This document shows, one piece after another, positions 44,222 to 47,448 of a stretch of 47,448 nucleotides of DNA. The stretch's first letter is position 1. Each line of letters starts with the position of its first letter. The position numbers were made by a program, and so were the translations under genes. The stretch lies in the NCBI GenBank assembly GCA_027483765.1, contig JAIXTW010000004.1, forward strand, positions 1 to 47,448. The letters are read 5' to 3'. This DNA is from Streptomycetaceae bacterium. Its GTDB lineage: Bacteria > Actinomycetota > Actinomycetes > Nanopelagicales > Nanopelagicaceae. Under the pieces are notes generated by a model, which saw only the letters and a list, made by a program, of their open reading frames with translations, ran no database searches and was not told the origin of the DNA.

Positions 44222-46267
44222 ATGCAATTTGCGTTAGCGACAATCTCTTATCTCATCACCGCTTTTGCGCTTATTTTTCTCACCATCCGAGTGCGTCAAC
44301 TGATTGCGCTCTACAAGAAGCAGCAACCTGATCCAACTCGTAGTAACAATAAGTCTGCTCGTTTTACAAATATGCTCACCGAAGTTCTTGGCCATACCAA
44401 GATGCTTAACTTCACAGCTACCGGAATTGCGCACTGGTTTGTCATGATTGGCTTTGGCGCTCTCTTTGGCACTCTCGTTACCGCATACGGACAGGTTATT
44501 AATCCGGAGTTCGCACTTCCGATTATTGGGCACTTCGTTGGGTACGAACTTTTTTCCGAACTCATCGCAGCCCTTACTGGAATTGGAATCGTCACACTCA
44601 TCGGAGTCCGACAAGTAACTCGACTTCGCACACGTAATCGCTTTAGCGGTTCAAATATGGGTAAGGCGTATTACGTCGAAGCCACAATTCTCGTCATAGT
44701 TTTCTGCGTCTTTGCACTCCGCGGACTTGAAGGCACACTCGCAAATAAAGAGTCCTGGACCTGGCACTACGCAATTTCATGGCCAGCAGTTCTTGCATTT
44801 AATTCAATGTCAGTCGCTTCCCTAGAAAGCGCCATAGTTATTGTGGCAACGCTCAAGATTGTGACATCGATGGCCTGGTTTATTGTGATTGCCTCCGATT
44901 TCACCATGGGTATTGCTTGGCACCGATTCTTGGCCTTCTTCAATATTTATTACAAGCGCAATATCGACCAGCCTGCACTCGGTGCTCTTCCAGAAATGCT
45001 CTCTAAAGGTAAGCCGGTTAACTTTGAAGATCCGGCAGAAGATGATGTCTTTGGTCTGGGAAATCGCGCCGATATTTCTTGGAAGGGTCTGCTGGATATG
45101 ACCAGCTGTACCGAATGTGGGCGCTGCCAATCGCAATGCCCTGCTTGGCACACTGATAAACCACTTTCACCAAAGCTTTTAATCATGGCTATGCGCGATC
45201 ACGCGATGGCGAAGGTTGTTGATACCGAAAATATTGTTGGTGAAAACGCTCCAATCTCATTAGATGTCTTATGGTCTTGTACATCGTGCGGTGCATGTGT
45301 TGAAGAGTGCCCAGTTGATATTGAGCACGTTGATCACATCGTGAACATGCGCCGCTTCCAAGTTCTCGTTGAATCTGAATTCCCATCAGAACTTGGTGGC
45401 ACTTTCCGAAATCTTGAAAAGGCTGGCAATCCATGGGGGGCCAATAAAGCAGACCGCGAAAGTTGGATTGCAGAATGTGATTTCCCAGTTCGCGTTGTGA
45501 GCGGCGAACTACCCGAGGAAGTTGAATATTTATTCTGGGTCGGTTGCGCTGGTGCTTATGAAGAGCGAGCGAAGAAGACTACAAAGGCGGTCGCTGAATT
45601 ACTGCACATGGCGGGAGTTAACTTTGCCGTGCTCGGAAAGCGTGAGACATGCACGGGAGATCCAGCACGTCGTTCCGGAAATGAATTCTTGTATCAAATT
45701 CTTTCGCAAGAAAATATTGCAACCTTTAACGAGACCTTCGGTGATAGATCAAAGGGGAAGAAGAAGGTTGTTGTCACCTGCCCACATTGCTTCACAACTA
45801 TTGGCCGTGACTATGCGCAGAGTGGCTTTGAACTCGAGATGCTGCACCATACCCAACTCTTAAATACACTTATTAAAGAGGGGCGGCTAAAGCCAAGCCC
45901 TCATAAATCAGAGAAGAAGTTGACCTATCACGACCCTTGCTACCTCGGTCGTCACAATCAAATTTATGCACCACCACGCGAATTGCTAGAGGCAAGCGGT
46001 TGCGATGTGGAAGAGATGCCACGTAATAAAGAGCGCTCATTCTGCTGCGGTGGTGGCGGTGGTCGCATGTGGATGGAAGAAAAACTTGGAACCCGGATCA
46101 ACTTAAATCGCGTTGATGAAGCTATCGAAACAGGTGCTGCCGAAGTTGCAGTTGCTTGCCCATTCTGCCGAATCATGGTCGGCGATGGAATGGTGGCTCG
46201 TGAATCAGATGTTGAAGTTCTAGATGTTGCCCAGGTATTACTTAGAAGCGTGAAGGCCGCAGAGTAA
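44222..46267 (+). CDS. membrane-bound (Fe-S) reductase, HdrD-like with CCG domains
   Basis: 681 residues. The N-terminal 240 residues hold about five or six membrane helices of NarI/HdrE-like type. Two 4Fe-4S motifs follow: CTECGRCQSQC (near 296) and CTSCGACVEECP (near 357). Then come two CCG-type repeats with CAGAYEE, CPHCFTT, HDPCYLGRHN and FCCGGGGGRMW. This resembles the actinobacterial iron-sulfur reductase (Rv0338c-like), which probably transfers electrons from a soluble dehydrogenase to menaquinone. It follows lldD by 17 nt, suggesting lactate oxidation. Its 3' end overlaps the convergent rhomboid gene by 26 nt. Confidence 0.85.
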   Translation: MQFALATISYLITAFALIFLTIRVRQLIALYKKQQPDPTRSNNKSARFTNMLTEVLGHTKMLNFTATGIAHWFVMIGFGALFGTLVTAYGQVINPEFALPIIGHFVGYELFSELIAALTGIGIVTLIGVRQVTRLRTRNRFSGSNMGKAYYVEATILVIVFCVFALRGLEGTLANKESWTWHYAISWPAVLAFNSMSVASLESAIVIVATLKIVTSMAWFIVIASDFTMGIAWHRFLAFFNIYYKRNIDQPALGALPEMLSKGKPVNFEDPAEDDVFGLGNRADISWKGLLDMTSCTECGRCQSQCPAWHTDKPLSPKLLIMAMRDHAMAKVVDTENIVGENAPISLDVLWSCTSCGACVEECPVDIEHVDHIVNMRRFQVLVESEFPSELGGTFRNLEKAGNPWGANKADRESWIAECDFPVRVVSGELPEEVEYLFWVGCAGAYEERAKKTTKAVAELLHMAGVNFAVLGKRETCTGDPARRSGNEFLYQILSQENIATFNETFGDRSKGKKKVVVTCPHCFTTIGRDYAQSGFELEMLHHTQLLNTLIKEGRLKPSPHKSEKKLTYHDPCYLGRHNQIYAPPRELLEASGCDVEEMPRNKERSFCCGGGGGRMWMEEKLGTRINLNRVDEAIETGAAEVAVACPFCRIMVGDGMVARESDVEVLDVAQVLLRSVKAAE

Positions 46268-46799
46268 GTAATACCTTTGTAATTATCGCGCCCGCAATAA
46301 GACCACCTAGGTGTGCCCGCCAATCGACACCGCCAATAGTGAATCCAAGGGCGAAGTTCAGTCCAATGACAACGATGATGCTTTTGATCTCACCATTCAT
46401 ACGCTTACCAATAACAATGAAGGCTCCGAAGAGACCAAAGACCGCGCCTGATGCTCCAATTGAATATCCGTTATAACCAAGGCTGAACGCCGACAGTAGC
46501 GAGCCTCCGATGAGAGAGACAAAGAAGATAACGAGAAACTTCGTGCGTCCCATAAATCGCTCAATGGGTGTTCCCAGTGAGTGGAGTGCGAGCATGTTAA
46601 ATGCCAAGTGAATTGGAATTGTGTTCGAGTTGTCGTGAACGAGCGCGACAGTGACAAGTCGATACCACTCGTTAGTTGATTGCAGTAGCTCTATTCCGTA
46701 TAGACCAAATGTGCCAATGAGACCGGAATCAAAGAGTTCGTATAAATAAAACCCGCAGATAATCGTGATCAGCGATAGAACTGCTGAACGCGATTTCAT
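46242..46799 (-). CDS. rhomboid-family intramembrane serine protease
   Basis: 185 residues and six membrane helices. The catalytic Ser is in SIGASGAVFGLFGA and the catalytic His in GGVDWRAHLGGLIAG. The helix-2 motif is HLAFNMLALHSLG with the oxyanion Asn. It cleaves membrane proteins inside the bilayer. It lies 18 nt after ppiA, as in many actinobacteria. The last 26 nt overlap the end of the opposite Fe-S protein gene. No strong Shine-Dalgarno is seen before ATG 46799. Confidence 0.9.
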   Translation of the reverse strand: MKSRSAVLSLITIICGFYLYELFDSGLIGTFGLYGIELLQSTNEWYRLVTVALVHDNSNTIPIHLAFNMLALHSLGTPIERFMGRTKFLVIFFVSLIGGSLLSAFSLGYNGYSIGASGAVFGLFGAFIVIGKRMNGEIKSIIVVIGLNFALGFTIGGVDWRAHLGGLIAGAIITKVLLTLRPSRF

Positions 46800-46817
46800 C
46801 GGCTTTTTTGTAAGGAG

Positions 46818-47330
46818 TTAAGCGATTGTGACGCTGTTGATGACAACTGGCGTAACAGGCTTATCTTGCGCACCTGTTGGTGTTGAGCCAATTTTGTCGA
46901 CTACTGCCTGTGAGGCTGCATCTTTTACTTCACCGAAAATTGTGTGCTTACGGTTAAGCCATGTTGTTGGAGCAACGGTAATGAAGAACTGTGAACCATT
47001 TGTTCCTGGTCCTGAGTTAGCCATCGCCAGAATGTATGGGCGATCGAACTGTAGGTCGCCATGGAATTCATCTGCGAATTGGTAACCAGGTCCGCCGAAG
47101 CCTTGACCAAGTGGGTCGCCACCTTGCAACATAAAGCCGGCGATGACGCGGTGAAAGATGGTTCCGTCATACAAATTCTCATTAGATTTCTTACCCGTGC
47201 GAGGGTCTGTCCACTCTTTGGCACCAGTTGCAAGACCAACAAAGTTTTCTACAGTCTTTGGTGCGTGGTTAGGAAATAGCTCGATGACGATATCGCCAAG
47301 AGATGTGTGAAGGGTCGCAGTGTTTGACAT
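46818..47330 (-). CDS. ppiA: cyclophilin-type peptidyl-prolyl isomerase
   Basis: 170 residues of the cyclophilin fold: TSLGDIVIELFPNHAPKTVENF, catalytic Arg in IFHRVIAGFMLQGGDP, and NGSQFFITVAPTTWLNRKHT. It has no signal peptide, so it is cytoplasmic and assists folding. The ATG at 47330 lies one base after the 3' end of tRNA-Ala (47332), so no 5' leader can remain once the tRNA is cut out. The order tRNA-Ile, tRNA-Ala, ppiA, rhomboid parallels the gyrA-proximal region of mycobacteria. Confidence 0.94.
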   Translation of the reverse strand: MSNTATLHTSLGDIVIELFPNHAPKTVENFVGLATGAKEWTDPRTGKKSNENLYDGTIFHRVIAGFMLQGGDPLGQGFGGPGYQFADEFHGDLQFDRPYILAMANSGPGTNGSQFFITVAPTTWLNRKHTIFGEVKDAASQAVVDKIGSTPTGAQDKPVTPVVINSVTIA

Positions 47331-47331
47331 G

Positions 47332-47404
47332 TGGAGACCAGGGGAATCGAACCCCTAACCCCCGCCTTGCAAAGGCGGTGCTCTACCAATTGAGCTAGGT
47401 CCCC
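47332..47404 (-). tRNA. tRNA-Ala (anticodon UGC)
   Basis: A complete 73-nt cloverleaf. The acceptor arms GGGGACC and GGTCTCC pair with one G-U. The anticodon stem CCGCC/GGCGG holds loop TTTGCAA (UGC), and the T-arm is AGGGGTTCGATTCCCCT. The discriminator is A at 47332. CCA is not encoded: the next bases are C and then the A of the ppiA ATG. It follows tRNA-Ile by 13 nt. Confidence 0.96.
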
Positions 47405-47417
47405 GTATTAGAACGGG

Positions 47418-47448
47418 TGGGCCCAGGTGGACTTGAACCACCGACCTC
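47418..47448 (-). tRNA. tRNA-Ile (probable GAU), 3' part only
   Basis: Only the 3' third is inside the window: variable-region GAGGTC, T-arm GGTGG TTCAAGT CCACC, acceptor strand TGGGCCC and discriminator A at 47418. The anticodon is beyond the edge. The identity is inferred from the T-arm and acceptor sequence and from its place before tRNA-Ala, the usual Ile-Ala pair. Confidence 0.75.

Follow-up and report, generated by a model that had tools for sequence, protein, structure and literature searches.

Organization of the tRNA-Ala–ppiA locus

The window, that is, the whole 47,448-nucleotide stretch of DNA that was analyzed, ends on its right side with a group of features on the minus strand. 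Read along that strand, these are tRNA-Ile(GAT), tRNA-Ala(TGC), a single C, and the ATG of ppiA. The tRNA-Ile(GAT) gene is cut by the contig end, and its 3' part occupies positions 47418 to 47448. The tRNA-Ala(TGC) gene extends from the acceptor stem to discriminator A73 at positions 47332 to 47404 and was identified by Infernal (RF00005, 71.4 bits) and by ARAGORN, whose span (47331 to 47404) is one base longer. The additional base, C74 at position 47331, is the only one between the discriminator and the start codon and is the probable last base of the cut tRNA-Ala. The order of discriminator (47332), C (47331), and ATG (from 47330) that had been described in the earlier note was confirmed by the sequence and by Infernal. 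The CCA end is indeed not encoded at this tRNA, the discriminator being followed directly by C-ATG.

The ppiA gene (46818 to 47330, minus strand) encodes a cyclophilin-type peptidyl-prolyl isomerase of 170 amino acids, and its Pro_isomerase domain (residues 6 to 168; PF00160, 1.4e-45) spans the full protein. A gene for a rhomboid-family membrane protein of 185 amino acids (46242 to 46799, minus strand; PF01694, 4.6e-28) begins 18 bases past the ppiA stop codon and is probably in the same operon. A scan for terminator-like sites found none in the region 46200 to 47448. The PpiA protein is 90% identical to that of P. lacus (Candidatus Planktophila) and up to 96% identical to a MAG record, and the host, a tiny freshwater bacterium, resembles Candidatus Planktophila.

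No in-frame ATG, GTG, or TTG is present upstream of the ppiA ATG before a stop codon, and the next in-frame start downstream is the TTG of Leu53, which by eye lies past the conserved N-terminal strand. The start codon is therefore secure. A misassigned start was ruled out as the origin of the junction, since Leu53 is the first alternative in-frame start and other genomes show the junction as well.

The window ends 44 bases beyond the 5' end of tRNA-Ala. Its last 119 bases, which include the tRNA-Ile fragment, are also present at the end of contig C2, which carries a gyrA-like ORF (assigned by eye), tRNA-Ile, and tRNA-Ala in this order; the Infernal end of tRNA-Ile at C2:14357 corresponds to window position 47418. 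Because C2 ends in the same 119 bases, the end of the window is an assembly break. An assembly artifact as the cause of the junction was ruled out by two genomes assembled as single contigs (G079 and G097; PpiA 98% identical), in which tRNA-Ile, tRNA-Ala, C, and ATG follow each other uninterrupted. On its left side, too, the window breaks off at a tRNA, a tRNA-Arg at positions 39 to 112 whose counterpart lies at the end of contig C10 (G000:C10 161314 to 161386), and both ends look like assembly breaks at tRNAs. Separately, ARAGORN reported a permuted tmRNA at 46727 to 47421 (minus strand) with the PpiA C-terminus as its tag. This call is almost certainly false, as Rfam at the gathering threshold gave no tmRNA in the window.

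Spacing between tRNA-Ala and ppiA in the family

The distance between tRNA-Ala and ppiA was determined, with the use of tblastn, in 89 of the 99 genomes with a ppiA match; the other 10, with partial or weak matches, were left out, and two partial matches (G049 and G093) were kept. The spacing was measured to the in-frame start nearest to the conserved region, except in G022, where the start was taken from the motif-based census. In 26 of the 89 genomes, from six of 17 genera, ppiA starts exactly after C74, 21 times with ATG, 5 times with GTG, and never with TTG. The spacing is three bases in 1 genome, 37 to 150 bases in 36, and over 700 bases in 2, and 24 genomes have no tRNA-Ala in the DNA in hand. 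Spacings of 1 to 2 or 4 to 36 bases were not found in the 89 genomes when the start nearest to the conserved core was used. Conservation of the junction in relatives, which had been proposed as a check, is thus partial: the exact junction recurs, but not in all genomes.

Some uncertainty in individual starts applies to both groups. A second in-frame ATG is located 12 to 15 bases downstream in 6 of the 26 zero-spacing genes, and some ppiA genes with leaders have further in-frame starts upstream (15 in G016 and 11 in G028 and G085). The only short-spacer exception seen for ppiA was C-GTT-ATG, with three extra bases, in G067, L049, and L050. Among 80 named loci, mostly from Streptomyces and other distant genera, the exact ppiA junction was present in four (L048, L053, L059, and L054). 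The PpiA N-terminus of L054 is longer, yet its start codon still follows directly after C74.

Two genomes, G016 (L398) and G061 (L399), encode PpiA proteins with 98% and 97% identity and have 54 bases between tRNA-Ala and ppiA. By eye, this gap contains a hairpin with a T-run and a TACTAT box, for neither of which there is room in the species with the exact junction. Close relatives therefore look as if they differ in having either a terminator and their own promoter or an exact fusion to the tRNA. The switch of ppiA between these two arrangements is recent and could have gone in either direction.

Start codons directly after other tRNAs of the same genome

Infernal detected 42 tRNA hits in the genome to which the window belongs, among which two pairs look like one gene at overlapping contig ends (tRNA-Ala on C2/C9 and tRNA-Arg on C9/C10). 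The discriminator is directly followed by C in all 42 hits, and the full CCA is encoded in 10 of them. A start codon comes right after C74 at three of these tRNAs, belonging to ppiA (ATG), leuS (GTG), and pdtaR (ATG).

The leuS gene follows tRNA-Ala(GGC) as C-GTG (L003 1 to 1577; G000:C7, minus strand) and matches TIGR00396 with 1.9e-199 over the 501 codons in hand. Five further genomes of the genus have the tRNA-Ala(GGC) 3' end with GTG, and one of these cases was read as leuS (L392). Behind tRNA-Leu(CAA), C-ATG begins a response regulator of 199 amino acids (L038 987 to 1661; G000:C7, minus strand). This protein (P0001) contains a receiver domain (PF00072, 1.3e-24) and an ANTAR domain (PF03861, 6.3e-24), and we take it to be PdtaR. 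At the remaining tRNA hits, no same-strand ORF of at least 60 amino acids starts less than 19 bases after the discriminator, in a search that reached 80 bases downstream and had only 2 and 39 bases available at two contig-end hits.

Spacing between tRNA-Leu(CAA) and pdtaR

The tRNA-Leu(CAA)-C-ATG-pdtaR arrangement is the most conserved junction among those counted in the family. Of the 101 family genomes, 94 contain the tRNA-Leu(CAA) 3' end, with 96 occurrences in total. A start codon follows at zero spacing at 85 of the 96 ends, with 76 ATG (68 by matching places and 8 read), 9 GTG (8 read and one that was truncated in the fetched stretch and came from the GTG pattern count), and no TTG. At the remaining 11 ends, pdtaR was located at 37 or 48 bases in 2 cases, and no pdtaR start was present within 150 bases in 9. 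A tRNA-Leu(CAA)-pdtaR spacing of 1 to 36 bases was not found at any of the 96 ends.

Among 49 distinct contexts that were read, the pdtaR core was in frame at zero spacing in 36; a 37th, L158, differs from the motif in one residue. The other zero-spacing tRNA-Leu(CAA) places rest on the pattern alone. Both ATG and GTG are used in the 37 contexts, and in the 36 that were measured, 1 to 20 codons separate the start from the core. This indicates that the N-terminal length and the start codon of pdtaR vary while the position of the start is fixed to the tRNA.

The spacing of ppiA and of pdtaR across the family is sharply bimodal, with counts that come from related and not from independent genomes. 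Abutment through genome compaction alone, with no relation to the synthesis or translation of the mRNA, would be expected to leave intermediate gaps as well, and these are missing at 1 to 2 and 4 to 36 bases for ppiA and at 1 to 36 bases for pdtaR. The family genomes are small (0.9 to 2.2 Mb), C74 sets a minimum distance, and spacers of 1 to 6 bases do occur at some tRNAs, all of which speak for compaction. Exact junctions were, however, also found outside the family in genomes of 2.8 to 4.3 Mb, and we consider compaction alone a very unlikely explanation.

Frequency of the junction pattern

A pattern consisting of the T-arm, then C, and then ATG after 0 to 12 bases was counted in the 101 family genomes, with the reversed pattern as the control. 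The pattern gave 844 matches and the control 72. At zero spacing there were 171 matches (control, 4) in 91 of the 101 genomes, and the next 12 spacings together had 673; the zero-spacing count is about 3 times the mean of 56 per other spacing. With GTG at zero spacing, 77 matches (control, 25) were found in 50 of the 101 genomes.

Among the matches listed, 80 places from 10 genomes of two genera were read as a sample and contained 63 pattern-matching tRNAs. The sample included 20 ORFs of at least 150 amino acids that start with ATG 0 to 12 bases after C74, 15 of them at zero spacing, one each at 1, 2, and 3 bases, and two at 6 bases. The 15 zero-spacing ORFs represent three kinds of tRNA (ten Leu-CAA, three Asn, and two Leu-CAG) and the five ORFs at 1 to 6 bases represent four (Leu-TAG, Ala-GGC twice, Ala-TGC, and Pro). 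Counted by kind of tRNA, zero spacing does not dominate in the sample, with three kinds at zero versus four at 1 to 6 bases. Of the five short-spacer ORFs, two (L232 and L258) have an additional in-frame start further downstream. It is the ppiA and pdtaR censuses that support an exact rule.

In the class as a whole, the pattern matched in 187 of 296 genomes; many of the matches outside the family are not tRNAs, and a class-wide junction frequency was therefore not drawn from this count. As a separate observation, an identical tRNA 3' end is present three times at a 69-base spacing at G078:C40 9332 to 9505 and may be a tRNA fragment repeated in tandem.

Genes and sequence signals at exact junctions

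A total of 110 distinct exact junctions were read, covering 15 tRNA species by ARAGORN. Many were chosen by pattern match, so that 110 is not a frequency, and a few (e.g., L205) may not be true tRNAs. Neighboring genes were named by Pfam only where one was scanned. In the family, tRNA-Arg(TCT) is followed by an RNase_T-domain exonuclease (Orn-like), tRNA-Pro(GGG) by a CDP-alcohol phosphatidyltransferase, tRNA-Asn(GTT) by an ACT-domain or DoxD/DoxX-like protein, tRNA-Leu(CAG) by a GDPD-family protein, tRNA-Met(CAT) by a homocysteine S-methyltransferase family protein, and tRNA-Ala(GGC) by a short-chain dehydrogenase. Outside the family, tRNA-Gln(TTG) precedes a GlmU-like protein (nucleotidyltransferase and hexapeptide repeats) and tRNA-Val(TAC) a NIF3 protein. 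The tRNA-Ala–ppiA junction is thus one case of a recurring arrangement.

A promoter hidden inside the tRNA genes could start ppiA at or near its ATG and give an ordinary leaderless or short-leader mRNA. Promoter-made leaderless transcription is common in actinobacteria according to the available parts of the literature, and tRNA genes could conceal a weak promoter. However, TANNNT beginning at -13 to -11, the position expected of a leaderless promoter, was present at none of the 110 exact junctions, and a crude scan of the minus strand from 46200 to 47448 detected no sigma-70-like site. Since fifteen tRNA species carry such junctions, tRNA sequences would need to encode promoters repeatedly. 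An origin of the ppiA mRNA at an internal promoter is therefore rather improbable. Upstream of tRNA-Ile, the scan gave no promoter or terminator, a result of little weight because only the sigma-70 consensus was used.

A Shine-Dalgarno tetramer within -17 to -6 was likewise present at none of the 110 exact junctions. A GAGG in the acceptor stem of tRNA-Leu(CAA), at -7 to -4 and not covered by the tested window, could act as a close Shine-Dalgarno sequence if ribosomes initiated on the uncut tRNA-mRNA with the tRNA as a structured leader. Against initiation of this kind, no GAGG-like motif is present at the ppiA or leuS junction, the GAGG would be base-paired, and the exact spacing would be needless. 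We regard this possibility as extremely unlikely.

Probable position of the 3' cut and candidate nuclease

The C after the discriminator is not specific to the junctions. It was present in 30 of 30 tRNAs read in three distant actinomycetes and, with the own genome, in 72 of 72 tRNAs that were not selected for C, and C74 is encoded whether or not the full CCA is. A nuclease that cuts one base past the discriminator would require every tRNA gene to encode C at position 74, as was seen.

In Propionibacterium acnes and Streptomyces coelicolor, the cuts within an encoded CCA that are mapped in the available parts of two reports (PMC3848588, PMC4681348) fall between the two Cs. The same sources place the cut a few bases further downstream for other P. 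acnes tRNAs with an encoded CCA, and no more than a few bases past the 3' end for several CCA-less tRNAs of S. coelicolor. The simplest reading is probably that the tRNA keeps C74 and that the mRNA starts at AUG without a leader.

The main alternative is a cut between A73 and C74, by an enzyme of the RNase Z type or by a C-preferring RNase E, which would leave C as a one-base leader before AUG. The usual RNase Z cut follows the discriminator (PMC10673834, as far as its accessible text goes). An RNase E/G is present in the genome (504.7 bits), and the excerpts consulted state that mycobacterial RNase E cleaves immediately 5' of cytidines (PMC10641625) and that cleavage sites of Mycobacterium smegmatis have C at +1 in more than 90% of cases (PMC6448022). 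The C74 seen in every tRNA read would also follow from a cut that requires C at +1. On the other hand, no RNase Z was recognizable, the C74 found in 42 of 42 own and 30 of 30 other tRNAs is expected if the base stays on the tRNA, and mapping in P. acnes and S. coelicolor placed the cuts within CCA behind C74. A cut before C74 is thus unlikely, although it retains some weight.

The RNase Z model (TIGR02651) had only two weak matches in the own genome, which is 96% complete, and by eye these are ComEC-like and RNase J-like. In eight family genomes the best E value was 8e-6. Among 118 genomes of the class, 25 had hits of 244 to 293 bits, and none was above the curated cut-off. The absence of RNase Z is not proven by these results, and an actinobacterial enzyme below the reach of the model may exist; P. 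acnes, too, is reported, in the part of the source available, to be without an obvious RNase Z. The idea that C74 marks genomes that have lost RNase Z was rejected, because every tRNA read in two distant genomes carries C74 although their RNase Z hits score 265 and 282 bits.

Two proposals made before this analysis have to be revised. RNase Z was named as the cutting enzyme, which is probably wrong, as it is not recognizable in the own genome or in the seven other family genomes scanned; RNase E/G is a candidate for the tRNA 3' cut. One leader base was expected on the ppiA mRNA, which is probably wrong as well, because this base is most likely C74 of the tRNA, leaving a leader of zero.

Proposed origin of the leaderless mRNAs

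What was observed directly is that the junctions exist, that their spacing is exact, that they recur, and that promoter and Shine-Dalgarno sequences are lacking at the tested positions. The most plausible explanation, which we consider likely to be correct, is that the ppiA mRNA is freed leaderless at its AUG when the 3' end of tRNA-Ala is cut after C74. The tRNA-Ile, tRNA-Ala, and ppiA genes would be on one transcript, and the endonuclease that matures the 3' end of tRNA-Ala would cut this transcript just after C74. A73 and C74 would stay on the tRNA, with C75 and A76 supplied by the CCA-adding enzyme. The downstream product would be an mRNA with AUG as its first three bases, presumably read as a leaderless message, a mode of translation that is routine in actinobacteria. 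The same device would serve leuS (GUG) and pdtaR (AUG) in the own genome and other genes in relatives. The core idea of the earlier note, a ppiA message made leaderless by tRNA 3' processing, is supported by the bimodal spacing of ppiA and pdtaR and by the lack of promoter or Shine-Dalgarno sequences at the tested positions, the processing step itself being deduced.

In M. smegmatis, a 5' ATG or GTG is described, in the part of the source at hand, as necessary and sufficient for leaderless translation. This rule fits both the ATG and GTG starts and the empty class of 1 to 2 bases in the ppiA and pdtaR sets.

A broader proposition, which we hold to be about evenly balanced, is that tRNA 3' maturation in actinomycetes is a standing route to exactly leaderless mRNAs with 5'-monophosphate ends for housekeeping and regulatory genes (those of pdtaR, ppiA, leuS, and the CDP-alcohol phosphatidyltransferase, GlmU-like, and Orn-like genes). 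Selection would pin the start codon directly after C74 and thereby tie protein output to tRNA processing.

If this is true, leaderless mRNAs have a second, promoter-free origin, and any start codon placed right after C74 of a tRNA allows a leaderless gene to be predicted from the DNA sequence alone. A response regulator and a tRNA synthetase would also be coupled to tRNA maturation, and the actinobacterial tRNA 3' nuclease would become directly testable.

Comparison with known systems

Promoter-made leaderless mRNAs of Mycobacterium, Propionibacterium, and Streptomyces, as described in the sources available, are alike in that they begin with AUG or GUG, lack a Shine-Dalgarno sequence, and are served by a translation machinery competent for them. 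They differ in that the 5' end proposed here would come from RNA cutting and bear a monophosphate. The cleavage within CCA in P. acnes and S. coelicolor would be at the same bond, after C74, but it is discussed there for the tRNA, and the available passages of those reports mention no downstream leaderless mRNA.

Bacterial leaderless mRNAs arising from tRNA processing had no recognized description in the accessible part of the open-license PubMed Central literature, which is weak evidence since subscription literature is mostly outside it. In the available text of a 2022 review of leaderless mRNAs (PMC9031893), "tRNA processing" is not mentioned and MazF is the sole cutting enzyme. With CCA-less tRNAs processed by RNase Z, tRNA-Ala shares the lack of an encoded CCA; the difference is that an RNase Z gene was not detected.

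The thrU-tufB operon of Escherichia coli also places tRNAs and a protein gene on one transcript that is split by tRNA processing, and its mRNA keeps a leader with a ribosome-binding site. The likeness lies in the shared tRNA/protein-gene transcript, and the difference in the ribosome-binding-site leader that mRNAs of the thrU-tufB type retain.

In mitochondria, excision of tRNAs splits the polycistronic transcript into mRNAs with no or almost no leader, an arrangement known as tRNA punctuation. The junctions are similar in that the start codon directly abuts the tRNA 3' end, with the one base C74 between them, a likeness at the level of the DNA. In contrast to mitochondria, the host is a free-living bacterium, a minority of genes is involved, and C74 is encoded, with CA presumably added later. 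Ordinary genes with leaders and Shine-Dalgarno sites also coexist here, unlike in mitochondrial punctuation. The arrangement is probably a bacterial form of mitochondrial tRNA punctuation, and free-living bacteria would then share the expression logic of mitochondria.
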